DNA of 29,686 nt, taken from the IMG/VR virus record IMGVR_UViG_3300009103_000119, positions 1 through 29,686 of that record, one strand, 5' to 3'. Source of the DNA: a virus. The notes below the pieces were generated by a model. It made no database searches. It was given only the letters and a program-made list of their open reading frames with translations, and had not been told where the DNA came from. Position numbers and translations under genes: made by a program. Positions 2,792 through 10,771 of the stretch are shown piece by piece (within the stretch, counting starts at the first letter, position 1; every line of letters starts with the position of its first letter).

Positions 2792-3664
2792 ATGGCACTA
2801 GTAAGTGTTAACTTAATAGACACGTTTGATGAATGGAGAATAAAGACAAACTCCATTAGTAGTGGTGGTGGCGACTTAGTTGCTTTAACAACGACTGATA
2901 AAACTAATTTAGTTAATGCTATTAATGAGGTTAAGGTTGTTGGACAAGGTAAGTTAGAAAATGTCGTTGAAGATACAACGCCTGAACTCGGTGGCGATTT
3001 AAGTTTAAATAATTATAATATTACTGGTACTGGTAATATATCTATCACAGGCTCTTATACTGGAACTTTAGATACTAGTGTTACTGGTGTTACACAAGCT
3101 AATGGTGATAACTCAACTAAAATAGCAACAACAGAATATGTTCAAAATACTTTTGGTACTGTTGCAGTTGGTGGAGATATATCTGGAACAGTTGGTAATG
3201 CACAAATAGCATCCAACGTAGTTGGTATAACAGAACTTGATGTTTCAGATGGTACAAATGGTCAAGCATTATGTACTAATGGTGCTGGTGTTTTGAGTTT
3301 TGCTACTCTCGACTTAACAGTAGGTGGAGATATATCTGGAACATTATCCAATGCACAAATCGTATCTAATACTATTGGAACAAATGAACTTAATTTATCC
3401 GAAGGTACTGCTGGTCAGGTAATAACTACAGATGGTGCTGGTACTATCAGTTATCAATCTTTATTTGCAGAAACTACTATATCACCAACAGCTGGTCAAA
3501 CAGTATTTAATATAACATATACAGTTGGTAGAATTGTAATGTTCTTAAATGGTGTGAAGTTAGTTGATGGTGTAGATTTTACAGCTACTAATGGTACAGA
3601 TGTAACTTTAACCACAGGTGTTTTAAATGTAACAGATGTCGTGGAGTTTCATACTTTTGTTTAA
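2792..3664 (+). CDS. Repeat-rich tail fibre / structural protein
   Basis: A 290-residue fibre-like protein. It contains the segment VVEDTTPELGGDL with LNNYNITGTGNI, which is typical of marine-phage fibres. Two GGDISGT..NAQI repeats and two G-x-x-E-L-(D/N)-(V/L)-S-(D/E)-G repeats follow. The C-terminal domain of about 65 residues is built on MFLNGVKLVDG and DFTATNGTDVTLTTG. The same C-terminal domain recurs in the genes at 9185 and 10514. The protein is a close relative of the 299-residue product at 9185. No membrane or signal segment is visible. It is most likely a trimeric beta-rich virion fibre or adhesin; its exact position in the virion cannot be told. Confidence 0.85.
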   Translation: MALVSVNLIDTFDEWRIKTNSISSGGGDLVALTTTDKTNLVNAINEVKVVGQGKLENVVEDTTPELGGDLSLNNYNITGTGNISITGSYTGTLDTSVTGVTQANGDNSTKIATTEYVQNTFGTVAVGGDISGTVGNAQIASNVVGITELDVSDGTNGQALCTNGAGVLSFATLDLTVGGDISGTLSNAQIVSNTIGTNELNLSEGTAGQVITTDGAGTISYQSLFAETTISPTAGQTVFNITYTVGRIVMFLNGVKLVDGVDFTATNGTDVTLTTGVLNVTDVVEFHTFV

Positions 3665-3679
3665 TATAAGGACAACTAA

Positions 3680-4546
3680 ATGACTGGTACTGTTTTAAAT
3701 CAAGAACAACTTAATAAACAAGATAAATATCTTGGTGGACATCCTTTAGATGGAAATTTAAAAATAACTCCCGAATGGGTTACACCGATAGGTCAAGTAG
3801 AATTAAATTTACCAGAACCTATGCGGATTGGATTGATTGAATATATTGCTTCTAAGGGTTATTGTACAACAATGGGTACTCATAAGAGAGTACAGACGAT
3901 AGAGTTTGAGAAAAATCATTACAATATGTTTAATGATAGTGATAATAATCCTGCTATAAAGGGTTATCAAGATATATCATCTGAATTAATTAGATATTAT
4001 ATGGCTCATGCTTATCATGTAGAAAACGCTGATAAATTAGATATTGAGTGTAGAGCGTTTGGTAATATGCAGACACCTGGCCGAAGAACTTTTCCACATT
4101 ATCATCATGCTTTTGATGGTGTTATGATTACATACTTAACTCTCGGTGGTGAATTCGCTTTAACTAGTGATGTTCAAGGTGATGATGATTTGCAGCTAGT
4201 AGCTCCTGGCTCAACAATTTGTGAACTCAAAACCAATGATATTATTGAAGAAAGAAAAGGAACGGTTGCGAATTATGCTGACTTTGATTTAAAGAAAGAA
4301 GATATGCCGAATGAGACTAATGGTGCGTTATTATTACTAGACCCAAGACCTGCTATTAATTATCCATATAATAATAAGGCAAAAGATTACGTTCCTAAAA
4401 TTGGAACAACAATATTCCATCCTGCTTATATTTGGCATGAATCTAATACTTATACTGGTAAAGGTATTAGAGCAGCTGTTGTAATTAATTATCGTATTAA
4501 TACATATAATAATAGTGGGTTGGTAAAACCATTGATTAAAACATAA
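3680..4546 (+). CDS. Putative 2OG-Fe(II) oxygenase, paralogue A
   Basis: A 288-residue protein with the double-stranded beta-helix signature of the 2OG-Fe(II) oxygenase group common in marine T4-like phages (PF13759-like). Visible motifs are CRAFGNMQTPG followed by PHYHHAFDGV (H140, H142, H143, D146), LLLLDPRP (221-223 DPR), a conserved H247-P, WHE (H253), and R264 in GKGIRAAVVINY. H140 or H142, D146 and the distal H253 are candidate iron ligands, and R264 is the likely 2-oxoglutarate anchor. It is homologous over its length to the genes at 6203 and 6922. Relative to those it has an acidic insertion of about 35-45 residues between 164 and 213. AAGGA is 7 bases before the ATG. The substrate is unknown; the surroundings are fibre genes. 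Confidence 0.8.
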   Translation: MTGTVLNQEQLNKQDKYLGGHPLDGNLKITPEWVTPIGQVELNLPEPMRIGLIEYIASKGYCTTMGTHKRVQTIEFEKNHYNMFNDSDNNPAIKGYQDISSELIRYYMAHAYHVENADKLDIECRAFGNMQTPGRRTFPHYHHAFDGVMITYLTLGGEFALTSDVQGDDDLQLVAPGSTICELKTNDIIEERKGTVANYADFDLKKEDMPNETNGALLLLDPRPAINYPYNNKAKDYVPKIGTTIFHPAYIWHESNTYTGKGIRAAVVINYRINTYNNSGLVKPLIKT

Positions 4547-4619: not shown

Positions 4620-5108
4620 ATGTCAACTTCAAGACTTATTGCTGATTTGTTGGATGCTGGCGGAGATGTTGTTTCTGGTGCATTGGATAATGTTCCAGCA
4701 AGCGATTGGACAACACTATTAAATAAGCCTGGTCATGCTGATACTGATACAACTAATGCTTCTAATATCAGTTCGGGAACGCTACATAATGATCGCTTAT
4801 CAGGTGTACCCAATGCAAAAATTAGTGGGTTAGCAACATCAGCAACAACTGATACAACTAATGCTTCTAATATCACATCTGGTACGCTAGCGACAGCCCG
4901 TATGGGTTCTGGCACAAACAATAGTTCAACTTACTTGCGTGGTGATGGAACATGGCAAACCAACTGTACAAACCATGCTAATTGTGCTACTGGTGGTGGT
5001 GGATTTACTAACTGTAACAATACATCTGGTAACTGTACAAACCATACTGCTTGTACTAATTGTGGTAACTGTAACTATGCTTGTTCCGCTTGTGCGTGTA
5101 ATTGTTAA
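4620..5108 (+). CDS. Tail-fibre-like protein with a cysteine-rich C-terminal tip
   Basis: A 162-residue protein. Residues 1-112 are ordinary phage-fibre sequence: two [12 protein letters not shown] repeats (about 43-54 and 78-90) and a TYLRGDGTW module (104-112) shared with the 587-residue fibre downstream. The last 50 residues are entirely different. They hold eleven cysteines, at 116, 122, 132, 139, 145, 148, 151, 155, 158, 160 and 162, and end in Cys. Seven of the eleven are preceded by Asn, with Asn/Thr/Gly filling the spaces. All eleven codons are TGT. The N-terminal part has no cysteine. The tip could be a disulfide knot, a metal site, or a substrate for the radical SAM enzyme encoded 2.7 kb downstream. 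The first two are general possibilities and the third is my hypothesis. The gene sits between oxygenase A and the 335-residue unknown. Confidence 0.85.
4962..5045 (+). repeat. In-frame 15-base direct repeat in the Cys-rich tip
   Basis: The sequence aactgtacaaaccat occurs at 4962-4976 and 5031-5045. The copies are 69 bases (23 codons) apart and in the same frame. They encode NCTNHANC and NCTNHTAC. This suggests the cysteine-rich tip grew by internal duplication. Confidence 0.8.
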
Positions 5109-5142
5109 TCTATCAATCATATTGAATAAAAGGAGAATTTAA

Positions 5143-6150
5143 ATGTTTAGAAAAATGTATGATAGCTTATCAATGGATGTTCATTTGGAGCTATTAATCA
5201 AAGGGGATTTAATTTGTTTGAAATCATGGCAACCTATTTCCCAAGAAGATTATGAGAATGACACCTCGCAGTTGGAACGTGAGATGTTTTGGGCGGGAGA
5301 ACGTAGTTTAAATAGTGCTTATCTTGCAGATTATATGCAATGGCCTGCTGATGTTTCAGGCGTGTTTCATACTCGAATGCCTAGTATGAAAATGGCTGGT
5401 AGTAATAAAATAATGGGAGAAGAATTTTTACCCAATATACCTGCCGAGATTAGAGATGCTTATGCAGCTCGATTGTCTGGAAAATATTTCCAAGCAGTTT
5501 CTTATTCTTGGATTGATCCTAGTGATCCTTCAATCGGCACAGGTGAATTAGATGATGGTGCTTGTTGGACAATCGGTGTTGACCATCTTAGAGCGGTTTC
5601 GCCTGCACAGAATACAATCGCTTATAGTAGAAATGCAAAAACACATCCATTGAGAGAAGCACGACGCTGGAAAGCACCTGTTTCTTTGATGCTGTATGTT
5701 CCGTTTAAAGACATGGCATTTACAGATTGTTCCATGACTCTTAAATATAATAGAGGATATGGTTTCAGTACCAATATATTAGATGGATGGACAGTTGGAG
5801 CAAATGATGCAGAGATTTTTGAGAATTCTGCCTTTAATTATACTGGACATATCAACGACGCTATGCCTAGTTTTGTAGTTACAAGTGGTGGTGGAAGTAT
5901 TGATGCTGGTGGTTCTGATACAGTTGAATTTAAAATGGTAGATGAAAACGGTGATACCATTAATAGAAATACAGTTATATATCTTGAACATACTGGCGGT
6001 TATTTACCACATCAGCGTGTTACACTTAACAATGGTGTAGGAACATTTGATGTTCATGCTTTGCATATGACTAGTGGTGATACATTCAAAGTTAAAATTG
6101 GATTCAGATCATATGTTGGTATGACAGATGTTGATTATACTGTTGCATAA
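5143..6150 (+). CDS. Unrecognised 335-residue protein with C-terminal Ig-like region
   Basis: I do not recognise residues 1-240. They contain helical and aromatic stretches (REMFWAGERSLNSAYLADYMQW, split here as REMFWAGERSL and NSAYLADYMQW) and a few cysteines (25, 141, 196). Residues 241-335 read as an immunoglobulin-like beta sandwich of the bacterial/phage type: FVVTSGGGSIDAGGSDTVEF, a VDENGDTI turn, LEHTGGYLP, NNGVGTFDVHA and GDTFKVKIGF. Ig-like domains are common on phage virion proteins and often bind carbohydrate weakly. The gene begins 34 bases after the cysteine-rich fibre, has AGGAG 7 bases before its ATG, and ends 10 bases before a strong terminator. It therefore closes the transcription unit that contains oxygenase A and the cysteine-rich fibre. 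A virion role is likely but unproven. Confidence 0.8.
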   Translation: MFRKMYDSLSMDVHLELLIKGDLICLKSWQPISQEDYENDTSQLEREMFWAGERSLNSAYLADYMQWPADVSGVFHTRMPSMKMAGSNKIMGEEFLPNIPAEIRDAYAARLSGKYFQAVSYSWIDPSDPSIGTGELDDGACWTIGVDHLRAVSPAQNTIAYSRNAKTHPLREARRWKAPVSLMLYVPFKDMAFTDCSMTLKYNRGYGFSTNILDGWTVGANDAEIFENSAFNYTGHINDAMPSFVVTSGGGSIDAGGSDTVEFKMVDENGDTINRNTVIYLEHTGGYLPHQRVTLNNGVGTFDVHALHMTSGDTFKVKIGFRSYVGMTDVDYTVA

Positions 6151-6160
6151 ATGAATTATT

Positions 6161-6190
6161 ATAAGGGGGGTTTCCCCCCTTATTTTAATA
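6161..6190 (+). terminator. Rho-independent terminator
   Basis: A perfect 10-base-pair inverted repeat (ataagggggg / ccccccttat, 6161-6170 and 6174-6183) has a 3-base loop and is followed by TTTAATA. The G/C block is conspicuous in this AT-rich genome. It lies between the 335-residue gene and oxygenase B and would separate the two halves of the island. Confidence 0.85.
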
Positions 6191-6202
6191 GAAAGGTAGA
6201 AG

Positions 6203-6925
6203 TTGAATATTACAGAATGCTGGACTACTGCTTTAGGTTCAACTGATATAAAACTGGACTCTCTACTAAAAGAAAATCTTGTTCGTTTTTTTGAGTATGT
6301 TGGCGACCAAAACCGAGTTTATACATCTTCAACTTATGATGAAAAAAATATTGGAAGTGGTTTAGGCCAATTTGAATCAAAGGTATATAATTTGTTTGAT
6401 TATGAACATGAAAGATATAAAATTTTTCCTGATATAATACCTCAAATGATGAAGTTTGAGAAAATACTTGCAGTACCTATAAGAGATTACATAAGTAAAG
6501 CGTGGGGTTTTGATAGAAATGTAAATATTAAAACAAGATGTTTTGGAAATGTACAAGCTACAGGTGGAACTAGAATTCCTCCACATTTTCATCATGGATG
6601 GGATGGTGTTTTAGTTCATTATTTAACAGCTGGAAATGAGTATGAATCTAAACTTGCTAAAGAACAGTATCAACCAACAAATACAAAGAATAGTGGTGAA
6701 TTATTATTACTTGATCCTAGACCTAATATTAGCAAACCCTATAATGATAAAGCAAAGATATACAAACCCTATTCTGGAATGACACTAATTCATCCAGGCT
6801 ATGTTTGGCATGAAACAGAAACTTTCACCGAGAGTGGATTAAGAGTTTGTGTTGTAGTTAATTTTACAATATTAAATCAGAATATAGATTACTTACCAGT
6901 ACTGTTGCATAACGAGGAACAATGA
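6203..6925 (+). CDS. Putative 2OG-Fe(II) oxygenase, paralogue B
   Basis: A 240-residue homologue of the gene at 3680 and the most compact of the three. Motifs in order are TRCFGNVQATG, PPHFHHGWDGV (H128, H130, D134), LLLLDPRP (171-173 DPR), H197-P, WHE (H203), and R214 in ESGLRVCVVVNF. H128/H130, D134 and H203 are candidate iron ligands, and R214 the probable 2-oxoglutarate contact. The start is TTG, the only non-ATG start I chose here. It is supported by AAGG 6-7 bases upstream, and no in-frame ATG lies nearby in the 20 bases after the terminator. The gene overlaps the next oxygenase by 4 bases (ATGA), so B and C are translationally coupled. The substrate is unknown. Confidence 0.8.
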   Translation: MNITECWTTALGSTDIKLDSLLKENLVRFFEYVGDQNRVYTSSTYDEKNIGSGLGQFESKVYNLFDYEHERYKIFPDIIPQMMKFEKILAVPIRDYISKAWGFDRNVNIKTRCFGNVQATGGTRIPPHFHHGWDGVLVHYLTAGNEYESKLAKEQYQPTNTKNSGELLLLDPRPNISKPYNDKAKIYKPYSGMTLIHPGYVWHETETFTESGLRVCVVVNFTILNQNIDYLPVLLHNEEQ

Positions 6926-7779
6926 ATAAACCTTCAATAAGTTTCGACCAGTTTAGAGATGCAAGAACAATGAATAAACCAGAAAAACCAGAACACATAG
7001 AATTTTACGAAACAAGAAAACCAGAAGAGCCCGATACTAGAATAGACACATTAGATAACTTTGCAAAAATAGAACATAGATGGTCAACGCCATTTATGGA
7101 AATGGAGTCTCAACTTCCAGAAAAAATGCGCCGTGATTTGATTGAAGTATTAATCAAAAAAGAAACGGCGATGACAGATTTAAAAAAGACAGAACCTCAA
7201 TTTTATTCTATGGCAGAAGCTAAAGGATTTTATGCTACTACGCATTATAATCTTTTTGCTGAAAAAGATTTAGAAGAATTTCCCGAATATAGAGATTCTA
7301 TATTGGGTTATGAACAAATTGCTTTGAAACAAATACGATATTATATTCGTAAAGGTTGGGGTGTACAACAAGCAGATGATATGGTAATAGAGGGACGTTG
7401 CTTTGGTAATGTTCAAGAACCTGGCGCTAGAACTTATCCTCATTATCATCAAGACATCAATGGAGTGTTAGTCAATTATTTACAGGTTGGAGATGAAAAT
7501 CGAAACCTTGATGAACAACTTGCAAGAGATTCATACAACTCGCCTCGACACGGCTCACATAATGTTTTATTTTTAGACCCCCGCCCTGCTATTTCATATC
7601 CTTATTGGGAAAAAGTTTATGCTGTAACACCTAAAGTTGGATTAACTATTATACATCCAAGTAATCTTTGGCATGAAACTAACCAATGGTTAGGGGATGG
7701 GATACGAGTTGTTATTGTTGTAAATTTTAGAATTTTATCGCATGGATATAACGAACTATTAGAAACATTTAGAGGATAA
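6922..7779 (+). CDS. Putative 2OG-Fe(II) oxygenase, paralogue C
   Basis: A 285-residue member of the same group. An N-terminal extension of about 45 charged residues (KPEKPEHIEFYETRKPEEPD) precedes the shared core. The core starts HRWSTPF...LPEKMRRDLIE, matching W-x-TP...LPEPMRIGLIE in paralogue A. Motifs are GRCFGNVQEPG, YPHYHQDINGV (H174, H176, N180), FLDPRP (219-221 DPR), H245-P, WHE (H251), and R262 in GDGIRVVIVVNF. The position that is Asp in A and B (HHxxDG) is Asn180 here, with an Asp two residues earlier. The metal site may therefore differ, or N180 may show that Asp is not a ligand in this group. It overlaps B by 4 bases and lies 4 bases before the radical SAM gene, so the three form one translation-coupled set. 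Confidence 0.8.
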   Translation: MNKPSISFDQFRDARTMNKPEKPEHIEFYETRKPEEPDTRIDTLDNFAKIEHRWSTPFMEMESQLPEKMRRDLIEVLIKKETAMTDLKKTEPQFYSMAEAKGFYATTHYNLFAEKDLEEFPEYRDSILGYEQIALKQIRYYIRKGWGVQQADDMVIEGRCFGNVQEPGARTYPHYHQDINGVLVNYLQVGDENRNLDEQLARDSYNSPRHGSHNVLFLDPRPAISYPYWEKVYAVTPKVGLTIIHPSNLWHETNQWLGDGIRVVIVVNFRILSHGYNELLETFRG

Positions 7780-7783
7780 TATA

Positions 7784-9181
7784 ATGGCACAATTTAATTT
7801 TCATTTACAGAACCAACCGCCCGAAGGCGAAAAAGCTATAGAATTAATTTTATATTATGATAATATGACATCTAGATTGTGGACTCAAGAAGGTGATGTT
7901 GTTATACCACAGGAGTTGTTTCACGATTGGACTCAAAATGATTATTATGGAATGTCTGCTGGTAAAAGTAATCTAAAGAAAATAAAAATTAATTTGGGAT
8001 TAAAATGTAATTACTCTTGTGATTATTGTTCACAAAGATTTGTACCTAGAAATAAAGACGATCATTTGGATACATCTGATTTTTATAGTATCGAAGATTC
8101 TGAAATTGAAGCATATGTTAAGAAGTTTGATAATATAACTGTAGATGAAAAACCACACTTTGAGTTGTGGGGTGGAGAACCATTTTTATATTGGAAAACT
8201 ATGAAACCTTTGATTGAAAGGTTACATAAAAAATATCCAGATTCTACTTATAGTGTTATTACTAATGGTTCAATGTTTACAGATGAAATTATAGATTTTA
8301 TTGAAGAGCATGAAATTTCTATTTCTGTTTCACATGATGGGCCAGGACAACCAACTAGAGGCCCAGACCCATTTGATGATCCAGAAAAAGCTAAACAACT
8401 TCATAAATTAAAAAATAAACTCGCACCTAAAGGAAAGATTTCTTTTAATAGTATGGTTCATAAAGACAATCCAAGTCGTGCCGATATACAAAGATGGTTT
8501 CGTAATAAAGTTGGATTGATTGGTATTGGTGAAGGCGGTGTTGTTGATGCTTATGATGAAGGTGGAGCAAATAATTCTTGGAAAGGTGTTGACGAACATA
8601 TAGATTATAGAAGAAAAGCATTTTCTGAGGTTCTTAAAGGTGGAACAGACAACTTTGTTATAAGAAAACAAAAAATTAATGCCTTTATTGATTCATTAAA
8701 ACATCAAAGACCTGCTGAAGCATTAAATCAAAAATGTGGAATGGATCAACCAAATACTATTGCAGTTGATATGAACGGTAACGTAACAACTTGTCAAAAT
8801 GTTACAGCATCATCATCTAATACTGCTGGAGTAAGTCATAATATTGGAACGATTAATGACGGTGATGCAGGACTCCGCAAAATTAAAATTAATCCAGGCA
8901 CACATTGGTCAGATAGAGCAGAATGTTCTAATTGTCCAGTATTACAATTATGTCAAGGTTCTTGTTTATTTCTTGCACCTGATTCTGAATATTGGGAAAT
9001 ATCTTGTAACAATGCATATAGTGATAATATTGTTTGGTTAGCAGCTGCATTGTATGACATTACTAATGGATATATACTTTATAGAATTGAAGGCCCGCAT
9101 AGAAAAGAACGGTGGGATGTTTTTGGATTTGACAGAGAAAAAGAAAAAGAAGAAAAACAATTAGAGTTAGAAATGGAATAA
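7784..9181 (+). CDS. Radical SAM protein with SPASM domain (peptide-modifying type)
   Basis: A 465-residue enzyme. The radical SAM core begins at KIKINLGLKC, with C75-x3-C79-x2-C82 for the [4Fe-4S]/SAM cluster, followed by a GGEP SAM-binding motif (130-133) and VITNGS (158-163). The C-terminal half carries a textbook SPASM domain: C318-x13-G332-x4-C337, then C381-x2-C384-x5-C390-x3-C394, then C408. This fits the CX9-15GX4C...CX2CX5CX3C...C rule of the family. SPASM proteins mature peptides or proteins, by thioether or other cross-links in RiPPs or by formylglycine formation in sulfatases. No clear peptide-recognition (PqqD-like) domain is visible in residues 1-65. The C-terminus is highly charged (450-465). 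It lies 4 bases after oxygenase C and 3 bases before a fibre gene. The substrate is unknown; fibre proteins, especially the cysteine-rich one, are the suspects. Confidence 0.9.
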   Translation: MAQFNFHLQNQPPEGEKAIELILYYDNMTSRLWTQEGDVVIPQELFHDWTQNDYYGMSAGKSNLKKIKINLGLKCNYSCDYCSQRFVPRNKDDHLDTSDFYSIEDSEIEAYVKKFDNITVDEKPHFELWGGEPFLYWKTMKPLIERLHKKYPDSTYSVITNGSMFTDEIIDFIEEHEISISVSHDGPGQPTRGPDPFDDPEKAKQLHKLKNKLAPKGKISFNSMVHKDNPSRADIQRWFRNKVGLIGIGEGGVVDAYDEGGANNSWKGVDEHIDYRRKAFSEVLKGGTDNFVIRKQKINAFIDSLKHQRPAEALNQKCGMDQPNTIAVDMNGNVTTCQNVTASSSNTAGVSHNIGTINDGDAGLRKIKINPGTHWSDRAECSNCPVLQLCQGSCLFLAPDSEYWEISCNNAYSDNIVWLAAALYDITNGYILYRIEGPHRKERWDVFGFDREKEKEEKQLELEME

Positions 9182-9184
9182 ATT

Positions 9185-10084
9185 ATGGCAGTCGTAGAGA
9201 TAACAAAAAAGGATAGTTTTCAATCATGGGTTGATAAGACTAATGAAATCCCTGAGATTTTTGGTGATTTAGATAATCTTACTACAACCGTTACTACTAG
9301 TCTTGTAGATGCACTTAACAGTATAGTTGCATCTAATAGTTTAAGTCTAGACAATATAGTTGAAGATACAACGCCAGAGCTTGGTAGTCATTTAGATTTA
9401 AACAATAATAATATTAATGGTACTGGTAATATAAACATAACGGGCGAATTTGTTGGTACTTTAGATACTAGTGTTACAGGAATAACTCAAGACCCAAGTG
9501 ATACTTCTACAAAAATAGCAACGACTGAATGGGCAGAAACTAAAGTTGCTTCATTAGCACCAAGTATTACTTTTGGTGGTGATTTGTCTGGTGCTTCTAA
9601 TAATGTAAGTATTAACGCCAATACAGTAGGAAGTTCTTCATTAGGAACAGAAAGTGGTGGAAATGTTCAAGAGTTTTTAGTAACAGACGGTTTAGGAACT
9701 TTAAGTTTTATAAATATTAATGATTTCGGTGGGGCTGCTGGTGGTGATTTATCAGGCGGTGCTGCTTCGATAGAAATAAATTCCAACACAGTTGGTATTA
9801 ACGAATTGAATTTAGTTGATGGTTCAGCGAATCATATTATAACTACGGATGGTGCTGGTACAATTACCTTTAAACCTTCCGTAACATTAAGCTCGGTATC
9901 ACCCAATGTAGGCGATCAAACATTTAATATTAATTATAATGTTGGTGGTATCGTAGTATATTTGAATGGTATCAAATTAGTTAATGGTGTAGATTTTACA
10001 GCTAATAATGGATCAAGTGTAGTGTTAACCTCTGCAATAGGTTACGCAAACCAAATTATTGATTTTCAAAGATATAGTGTGTAA
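9185..10084 (+). CDS. Repeat-rich tail fibre, paralogue of the gene at 2792
   Basis: A 299-residue protein with the same plan as the 290-residue fibre upstream. An N-terminal segment (SFQSWVDKTNEIP) matches the earlier DTFDEWRIKTNSI. IVEDTTPELGSHLDLNN and TLDTSVTGIT follow, then STKIATTEWAE, GGDLSG repeats, a GINELNLVDG repeat, and a C-terminal domain with VYLNGIKLVNG and DFTANNGSSVVLT. No cysteines were seen. It begins 3 bases after the radical SAM stop, using GGAAT within the end of that gene as a ribosome site. It is probably a trimeric beta-rich virion fibre. Duplication with divergence from the 2792 gene is the simplest history. Confidence 0.85.
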   Translation: MAVVEITKKDSFQSWVDKTNEIPEIFGDLDNLTTTVTTSLVDALNSIVASNSLSLDNIVEDTTPELGSHLDLNNNNINGTGNINITGEFVGTLDTSVTGITQDPSDTSTKIATTEWAETKVASLAPSITFGGDLSGASNNVSINANTVGSSSLGTESGGNVQEFLVTDGLGTLSFININDFGGAAGGDLSGGAASIEINSNTVGINELNLVDGSANHIITTDGAGTITFKPSVTLSSVSPNVGDQTFNINYNVGGIVVYLNGIKLVNGVDFTANNGSSVVLTSAIGYANQIIDFQRYSV

Positions 10085-10513: not shown

Positions 10514-10771
10514 ATGTCATCACATCACGAATTTATAGGGAATCATCCATTTACAGTTAGGTCTGATGTTCAAGTACCAACTGCTGGTCAAACGACTTGG
10601 AATATGACGTATATCCCTGATCGTCTTATGGTTTTTCTAAATGGTGTTAAATTGATTAGCGGCACAGACTATACAGCTACTAATGGTACAAGTATTGTTC
10701 TAGCGTCTGGTGCTGATACTGCTGACCATATTGAATTTTTATGTTTCGATTTGGGTGAAGCAGACGTATAA
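10514..10771 (+). CDS. Stand-alone fibre C-terminal domain protein
   Basis: An 85-residue protein that is almost entirely one copy of the domain found at the C-termini of the fibres at 2792 and 9185. It reads PTAGQTTWNMTYIPDR, then VFLNGVKLISGTDYTATNG, then TSIVLASGADTADHIEFL. The first 15 residues (SSHHEFIGNHPF) are unique and histidine-rich. AAGGA lies 7 bases before the ATG. As a free-standing domain it could be a separate virion adhesin, a trimer cap, or a remnant of a shuffled fibre. The intact reading frame, ribosome site and possible promoter favour a real gene. Confidence 0.8.
   Translation: MSSHHEFIGNHPFTVRSDVQVPTAGQTTWNMTYIPDRLMVFLNGVKLISGTDYTATNGTSIVLASGADTADHIEFLCFDLGEADV

Follow-up and report, generated by a model that had tools for sequence, protein, structure and literature searches.

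Does a phage encode an enzyme that chemically finishes the tip of its own attachment fibre? The question is raised by a locus in IMG/VR virus record IMGVR_UViG_3300009103_000119, a stretch of 29,686 nucleotides that was analysed as a whole and is called the window here. The window belongs to a T4-like marine myophage, whose terminase shares 55-56% identity with its counterparts in Synechococcus and Methylophilales phages. In it, a tail fibre gene with a Cys-rich C-terminal tip lies upstream of a gene for a radical S-adenosylmethionine (SAM) enzyme with a SPASM domain, and an earlier note on this DNA had proposed that the enzyme matures the fibre much like a ribosomally synthesized and post-translationally modified peptide (RiPP). 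Our analysis points with good confidence to a phage fibre-maturation cassette, in which the dedicated radical SAM/SPASM enzyme encoded at 7784-9181 acts on the Cys-rich tip of the fibre encoded at 4620-5108. The clade of this enzyme and fibre tips rich in (N/D/A)C are almost inseparable, and this holds for unrelated tailed phages and prophages whether sampled in seawater, in fresh water or within bacterial genomes.

The fibre gene (4620-5108, plus strand) encodes 162 amino acids, and the N-terminal part of the product is homologous to other marine phage fibres. Cys positions were counted in the open reading frame (ORF). Residues 1-115 contain no Cys, and all 11 Cys (116, 122, 132, 139, 145, 148, 151, 155, 158, 160 and 162) fall within the last 47 residues. 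The tip, comprising fibre residues 112-162 (4953-5105, plus strand), is the presumed core and enzyme substrate and ends in CSACACNC. By comparison, the 26 other window ORFs that were counted contain 47 Cys in 7963 residues (0.59%). The enzyme gene starts 2676 bp past the fibre stop. Both starting observations of the earlier note, eleven Cys at the end of a fibre that is Cys-free before them and a complete-SPASM radical SAM gene within 2.7 kb, were thus confirmed.

Tips of this kind occur at many loci, which are denoted by L numbers. Homologous tips ending in CACNC or similar were found at L004, L005, L007 (four in tandem), L008 and L012-L032, and the fibre N-terminal family of the window was also found without a Cys tip (L009, L010). 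Other tips at radical SAM loci end in NFNCNCNCNCDCYC, TNCNCNCNCNCNC and ACACDCACACNC, and the tip peptide of the phage JWF fibre is VKPRQNCNCDCNCNCS. The Cys-tipped proteins, fibres of 81 to more than 600 amino acids, keep their N-terminus within one fibre family and differ between phage groups. They comprise mutually unrelated kinds: marine myophage fibres, JWF-like fibres and tandem ORFs of 81-98 amino acids. Among about 440 CXC spacer residues the most frequent were Asn (263), Ala (82) and Asp (43). Cys spacing is irregular in the window and in many marine loci (C..C.C.C, NCxxxxxNC). The tips are encoded by mixed codons, AAC and AAT for Asn and TGC and TGT for Cys, which argues for selection on the protein.

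The enzyme gene (7784-9181, plus strand) encodes 465 amino acids and matches PHROG 1802 (E 7.8e-62, profile positions 10-416 of 556). The radical SAM motif CX3CX2C is formed by C75, C79 and C82, which are invariant in 43 diverse homologues, and Pfam Radical_SAM PF04055 scored 40.6 bits against a cut-off of 29.5. The seven-Cys SPASM pattern is complete (C318-x13-G332-x4-C337 ... C381-x2-C384-x5-C390-x3-C394 ... C408). Each of its Cys (C318, C337, C381, C384, C390, C394 and C408) is kept in at least 90% of the same homologues, and SPASM model TIGR04085 scored 35.8 bits against a cut-off of 27. Among NCBIfam models, PapB (ranthipeptide), QhpD and CcpM (Cys-rich peptide maturase) came closest, and each scored far under its cut-off. 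PapB was the best match (E 3.8e-19; 69.1 bits, cut-off 340) and QhpD TIGR03906 the second best (64.9 bits, cut-off 453), while the SCIFF maturase model scored 33.8 bits (cut-off 425). The nearest sequence in the PDB is TigE (8vpo). An AlphaFold2 (AF2) model of the enzyme has a pLDDT (model confidence) of 91.9, and its closest folds are CteB, which forms thioethers, the anaerobic sulfatase-maturating enzyme (anSME) and ChlB. The enzyme of the window represents a new subfamily of SPASM maturases with a Cys-rich substrate.

The presence of anSME among the closest folds, together with the annotation of the JWF homologue gp30 as an anSME, might suggest that tip Cys are converted to formylglycine with no crosslinking. 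Like the window enzyme, anSMEs combine this fold with a SPASM domain. Unlike them, the window enzyme misses the family cut-off (54.2 bits with TIGR03942, cut-off 349.45), and the recognition motif C-x-(A/P)-x-R (target C/S-x-P/A-x-R) is not found in the window tip. The dozens of alternating Cys point instead to iterative or bridging chemistry. We regard formylglycine formation as very unlikely.

The association of enzyme and tip was examined in both directions. The forward query, an alignment of five radical SAM enzymes (A1), was searched against IMG/VR and GTDB blind to any fibre. The best 80 loci per collection were taken, giving with JWF and the window a set of 161 (159 further loci), which a 90% identity threshold reduced to 117 distinct loci. 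Many of the contigs are fragments and some come from near-identical viruses, and the forward test was de-duplicated. A tip was defined as C.C.C in the last 45 residues, or C.C.C followed by a Hint domain; the stricter C.C.C.C misses the window and the Hint forms. The same strand downstream served as the control, chosen over the opposite strand, which was noisy at 17/118. A tip lay upstream on the same strand in 82/95 non-redundant loci with at least 5 kb of upstream sequence (76 with C-terminal CxCxC, five with Hint and one internal). Downstream of the enzyme gene there was a tip in 0/73 loci, and the residue-shuffle null was 3.2%. As a base rate, at least 368 relatives of the enzyme were found in the 2.9 million contigs of the collection used for the reverse search. 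When the Rhodobacterales and Limnohabitans enzymes were used as queries, the only annotated phages matched were JWF and 2-1; the gene of phage 2-1 is annotated PHROG 1802. For distant radical SAM enzymes of Campylobacter, Thermus and Erwinia phages the match was restricted to the core.

For the reverse query, IMG/VR was scanned with DNA patterns encoding CNCNCNC-stop and CACACNC-stop. Genuine fibre-type tips were present in 65/68 newly fetched records; the other three matches were out of frame or in tiny ORFs. Two apparent exceptions, L185 and L211, were rejected since the match is out of frame in a tail sheath gene. The enzyme was found at E<=1e-99 anywhere in the record in 60/65 genuine tip contigs, and the five without it (L192, L197, L201, L204 and L234) stop 72-1420 bp past the tip. 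Whole genomes were then sampled using 301 genomes from the bacterial family to which Limnohabitans lacus belongs, the loose DNA pattern NCNC[NDAT]C and inspection of the frame. The enzyme is encoded in 5/301 genomes, four of which have a true tip, and a true tip was found in 0/296 genomes without the enzyme. The loose pattern occurred in 33/301 genomes, comprising the four true tips and 29 matches out of frame or in tiny ORFs. Most of 33 enzyme-bearing genomes (2.6-8.8 Mb) have one or a few copies of the pattern, as a rule at the radical SAM locus. Frequent tips in phages lacking a SPASM gene, which the earlier note had named as evidence against its pairing, were therefore not what the co-occurrence check found; as linkage, the pairing was upheld in both search directions.

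Phages that share the window's fibre N-terminus and have no Cys tip were found to lack the cassette, and L010 illustrates this natural absence. This record has homologues of the window's pre-cassette gene, fibre N-terminus (53% identical) and post-cassette gene, arranged as in the window. The C-terminus of its fibre, however, is free of Cys, the block between fibre and post-cassette gene (X, oxygenase and radical SAM genes, described below) is missing, and no radical SAM gene is present anywhere in the 33 kb record.

Repeats such as (AACTGC)n also exist elsewhere in genomes as microsatellites. The tips could in principle be neutral hexamer-repeat expansions that came to lie near the enzyme gene by chance or hitchhiking. 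Frame checks of the (AACTGC)n matches led us to reject this origin: the microsatellites are either out of frame or confined to tiny ORFs, whereas true tips are C-termini of fibres beside the enzyme gene and vary in synonymous codons. With forward and reverse searches in agreement, chance is effectively excluded, and we give this explanation next to no credence.

The enzyme and the fibre are accompanied by other conserved genes. The window contains an ORF here called X and three 2-oxoglutarate (2OG)-Fe(II) oxygenase-like ORFs that are part of the conserved cassette and were overlooked in the earlier note. The common order is fibre(s), X, oxygenase-like ORF(s), radical SAM gene. X (5143-6150, plus strand, 335 amino acids) consists of an N-terminal domain with phage relatives only and a C-terminal invasin/intimin-like immunoglobulin (Ig) domain. 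In Foldseek searches with its AF2 model (pLDDT 89.9), the C-terminal part matched InvE/intimin and the N-terminal part matched only uncharacterised phage proteins (E 2.6e-21). Pfam Big_1 was detected in 7/38 members of the X cluster (cluster 1), and a tblastn search of X against annotated phages gave no match. The oxygenase-like ORFs all match PHROG 81 and fall in cluster ox2. The upstream copy (3680-4546, plus strand; PHROG 81 E 1e-6) scores below the PF13759 cut-off of 27 (16.1 bits, E 0.015), and the copies at 6203-6925 (plus strand, TTG start as called) and 6922-7779 (plus strand) score 27.9 and 31.3 bits. In JWF and some other loci X is replaced by a cluster 17 protein of 230-290 amino acids.

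X may be a tip cap, an adhesin or a chaperone. The gp38 protein of T4-like phages and Tfa are fibre tip adhesins or chaperones, and like X they are encoded directly after the fibre and may bind its tip. X differs in not being a recognised homologue of these proteins and in its Ig/invasin-like C-terminal domain.

The conserved gene order, with X in 62/95 and oxygenase-like ORFs in 55/95 of the non-redundant loci, leaves room for a different target of the enzyme: X, a 2OG-type protein or a host surface molecule, with the Cys tip a co-selected receptor-binding module. The tip is nevertheless the most constant partner of the enzyme. Tip and enzyme occur without X, oxygenase or the cluster 17 protein in 9/95 loci, and JWF has the cluster 17 protein only. 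Loci with X and no tip number two, L039, which is probably incomplete, and L167. We consider a different target quite unlikely. The tip is the best candidate substrate because it is more constant than X or the oxygenases and because tip and enzyme occur without either.

Several points weigh against enzymatic maturation of the tip. Linkage identifies neither the reaction nor the tip, as opposed to a tip-bound partner, as the substrate, and a C-terminal tip rich in Cys and Asn could possibly serve plain metal binding or disulfides. The window enzyme reached no NCBIfam equivalog cut-off. Judged from the AF2 model, residues 1-63 show no winged helix of the kind seen in a RiPP recognition element (RRE), but three short strands and no helices of four or more residues. 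In the window an intrinsic-terminator-like hairpin (6164-6181, plus strand; stem AGGGGGGTTTCCCCCCTT plus ATTTT), which the earlier note had correctly placed between the fibre and enzyme genes, lies between X and the next gene. It parts fibre and X from the oxygenases and the enzyme, though order and co-occurrence are conserved. Finally, the 6.5 kb upstream of the enzyme gene contain no tip in 13/95 non-redundant loci, and three of these (L147, L151 and L167) are plain exceptions.

Exceptions to the pairing are mostly distant homologues or incomplete loci. Six of the 13 form a YcaO-linked branch (L153, L155-158 and L164), in which the enzyme gene is mostly beside a YcaO-nitroreductase fusion. 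At L132 the pattern is in the same genome about 11 kb from the enzyme gene, at L083 the tip is downstream of it, and L110 looks degraded, as L039 looks incomplete. The YcaO-linked branch was also noted in its own right. At L153 and L155-L158, from Variovorax, Ramlibacter and a gammaproteobacterial metagenome-assembled genome (e.g. L156:7214-9514), members of the enzyme clade lie beside the fusion with no NC tip; this resembles a chromosomal RiPP cluster with a relative of the phage enzyme.

What, then, might the enzyme do to the tip? Strict CxCxCxC alternation fits a β-strand with all Cys on one face, and metal in a fibre tip has a precedent in the HxH iron sites of the T4 long fibre tip protein gp37. 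Alternating Cys on the three-fold axis of a trimer could hold metal or an Fe-S cluster, and the enzyme could aid cluster assembly or modify something else. A metal site would have no need of a dedicated radical SAM/SPASM enzyme, which is hard to square with the near-constant pairing of tip and enzyme. In the literature surveyed, SPASM enzymes whose substrates are known act on peptides or proteins, and the irregular Cys spacing in the window and many marine loci is unsuited to an axial metal column. A metal or Fe-S tip is thus unlikely in our view.

Covalent modification of the tip by the enzyme has closer parallels. On Cys-rich substrates, SPASM enzymes make S-C bonds to α, β or γ carbons (PMC8326336). 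NxxcA has a Cys-Asn thioether and QhpD makes Cys-Asp/Glu thioethers inside a protein, which provides a Cβ precedent for both Cys-Asn and Cys-Asp (PMC8326336). The ranthipeptide/SCIFF maturases PapB, CteB and NxxcB share with the window enzyme the SPASM architecture and a Cys-rich substrate encoded nearby. They differ in that the presumed substrate in the window is a phage fibre C-terminus rather than a short leader-core peptide, and in that the window enzyme has no obvious RRE, is phage- or prophage-encoded and scores far under equivalog cut-offs. QhpD modifies a structural protein subunit rather than a free peptide, as the window enzyme would, though its substrate is unrelated and no QHNDH subunit was seen among the window ORFs examined. 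Spacers are mainly Asn and Asp, which would place acceptor β-methylenes next to thiols, and for this reason Cys-Asn/Asp thioethers are our leading guess for the tip chemistry, a tentative one that is drawn by analogy. To describe the fibre as a strict RiPP precursor, with leader recognition and cleavage, would go beyond the linkage and the Cys-rich C-terminus, and the conserved cassette set contains no protease gene.

A mechanism can be proposed on this basis. The enzyme would act on the fibre tip before or during virion assembly, taking a side-chain hydrogen, most plausibly from an Asn or Asp between Cys, and joining that side chain to a neighbouring Cys thiolate. A floppy, oxidisable Cys tail would thereby become a rigid, irreversibly cross-linked tip, with bonds either inside single chains of the fibre trimer or from one chain to another. 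Such a tip should be stable in oxic water, and links between chains could lock the trimer. In some of the phages the 2OG oxygenase-like proteins may modify the same tip a second time, for example by hydroxylating Asn/Asp, and X may cap, present or chaperone it.

Some fibres carry a further element. A Hint (intein/hedgehog-like) domain that starts at a Cys (CFPAGT...) comes directly after the NC repeat in JWF, 2-1, Burkholderia paludis, Rhodospirillaceae and L266. The corresponding fibres are L002:5631-7082 (JWF), L011:3796-5238 (2-1), L116:7610-9139, L159-L162 and L266:3181-4692. By analogy with Hint autoprocessing, the domain may free the tip as a mature C-terminus. Taken together, we lean, with limited confidence, towards a viral radical enzyme that ties the virus's own fibre tip together with permanent crosslinks other than disulfides (probably Cys-Asn/Asp thioethers, possibly inter-chain), with optional oxygenase modification and Hint release in some phages. 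Covalent adhesin maturation of this kind would be widespread, modular and transferable, and unlike known phage tail biology.

Cys repeats were also found in other arrangements. L007 has four tandem Cys-tipped fibres, and L017, L051 and L076 have three each. At L007:10001-12178, L051:3431-4211 and L076:7694-8574 the arrays consist of different Cys-tipped fibre genes sharing one radical SAM gene, as if alternative tips were stored. At L066 (2-3520 and 3551-9805) NC repeats are internal in tail proteins of 1172 and 2084 amino acids, just before a DPLxQxF...GGxF motif, and adjoin the radical SAM gene. At L083:11555-12466 and L087:5066-5977 a Cys-repeat protein is encoded 3' of the radical SAM gene, and a conserved 'SKIICTKL(F/Y)Q.G..PYGIF.ADQEYGEW' domain comes after the repeat.

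The flanks of the cassette in the window were inspected as well. The tail protein encoded at 841-2391 combines an Mtd_N domain (PF18454, E 8.8e-13) with a collar-like domain. At 535-825 a 96 amino acid protein has a Cys-rich CxxC-type C-terminus (CESC...CKVCAC...KCP) and recurs in 11 loci at about -6.3 kb from the radical SAM gene; it resembles a zinc-finger protein and looks unrelated to the fibre tip. Small paralogous tail proteins sharing N- or C-terminal modules (cluster c8) are encoded at 2792-3664, 9185-10084 and 10514-10771 and by relatives. They lie on both flanks of the cassette and may possibly help its exchange by recombination.

Radical SAM cassettes have been reported as insertions in the host-recognition clusters of pelagimyophages; that paper does not mention cysteine, and we found no substrate or function proposed for them there (PMC7029224). 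These cassettes are very likely of the same kind as the cassette in the window. We found no description, in a search of open-access literature, of a phage radical SAM enzyme linked to a Cys-rich fibre tip, and a virion fibre tip, as predicted here from sequence, is new as a substrate of a SPASM maturase. Our results offer a likely function for PHROG 1802 and for the radical SAM cassettes that abundant marine phages carry in their host-recognition clusters. The many apparent substrates for one enzyme clade should be useful for radical SAM chemistry. The question is directly testable because the pair is present in the cultured Achromobacter phages JWF and 2-1, where the fibre gene is two genes past the Tal/baseplate-hub gene. 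The pairing suggests that viruses with tip and enzyme use radical chemistry to remodel their own attachment fibre at its tip. Phage host range is set by receptor-binding tips. If tip chemistry is written by a radical enzyme, prediction from sequence or structure would miss the true chemical form of such fibres, and recombinant fibres produced without the radical SAM enzyme may be non-native.

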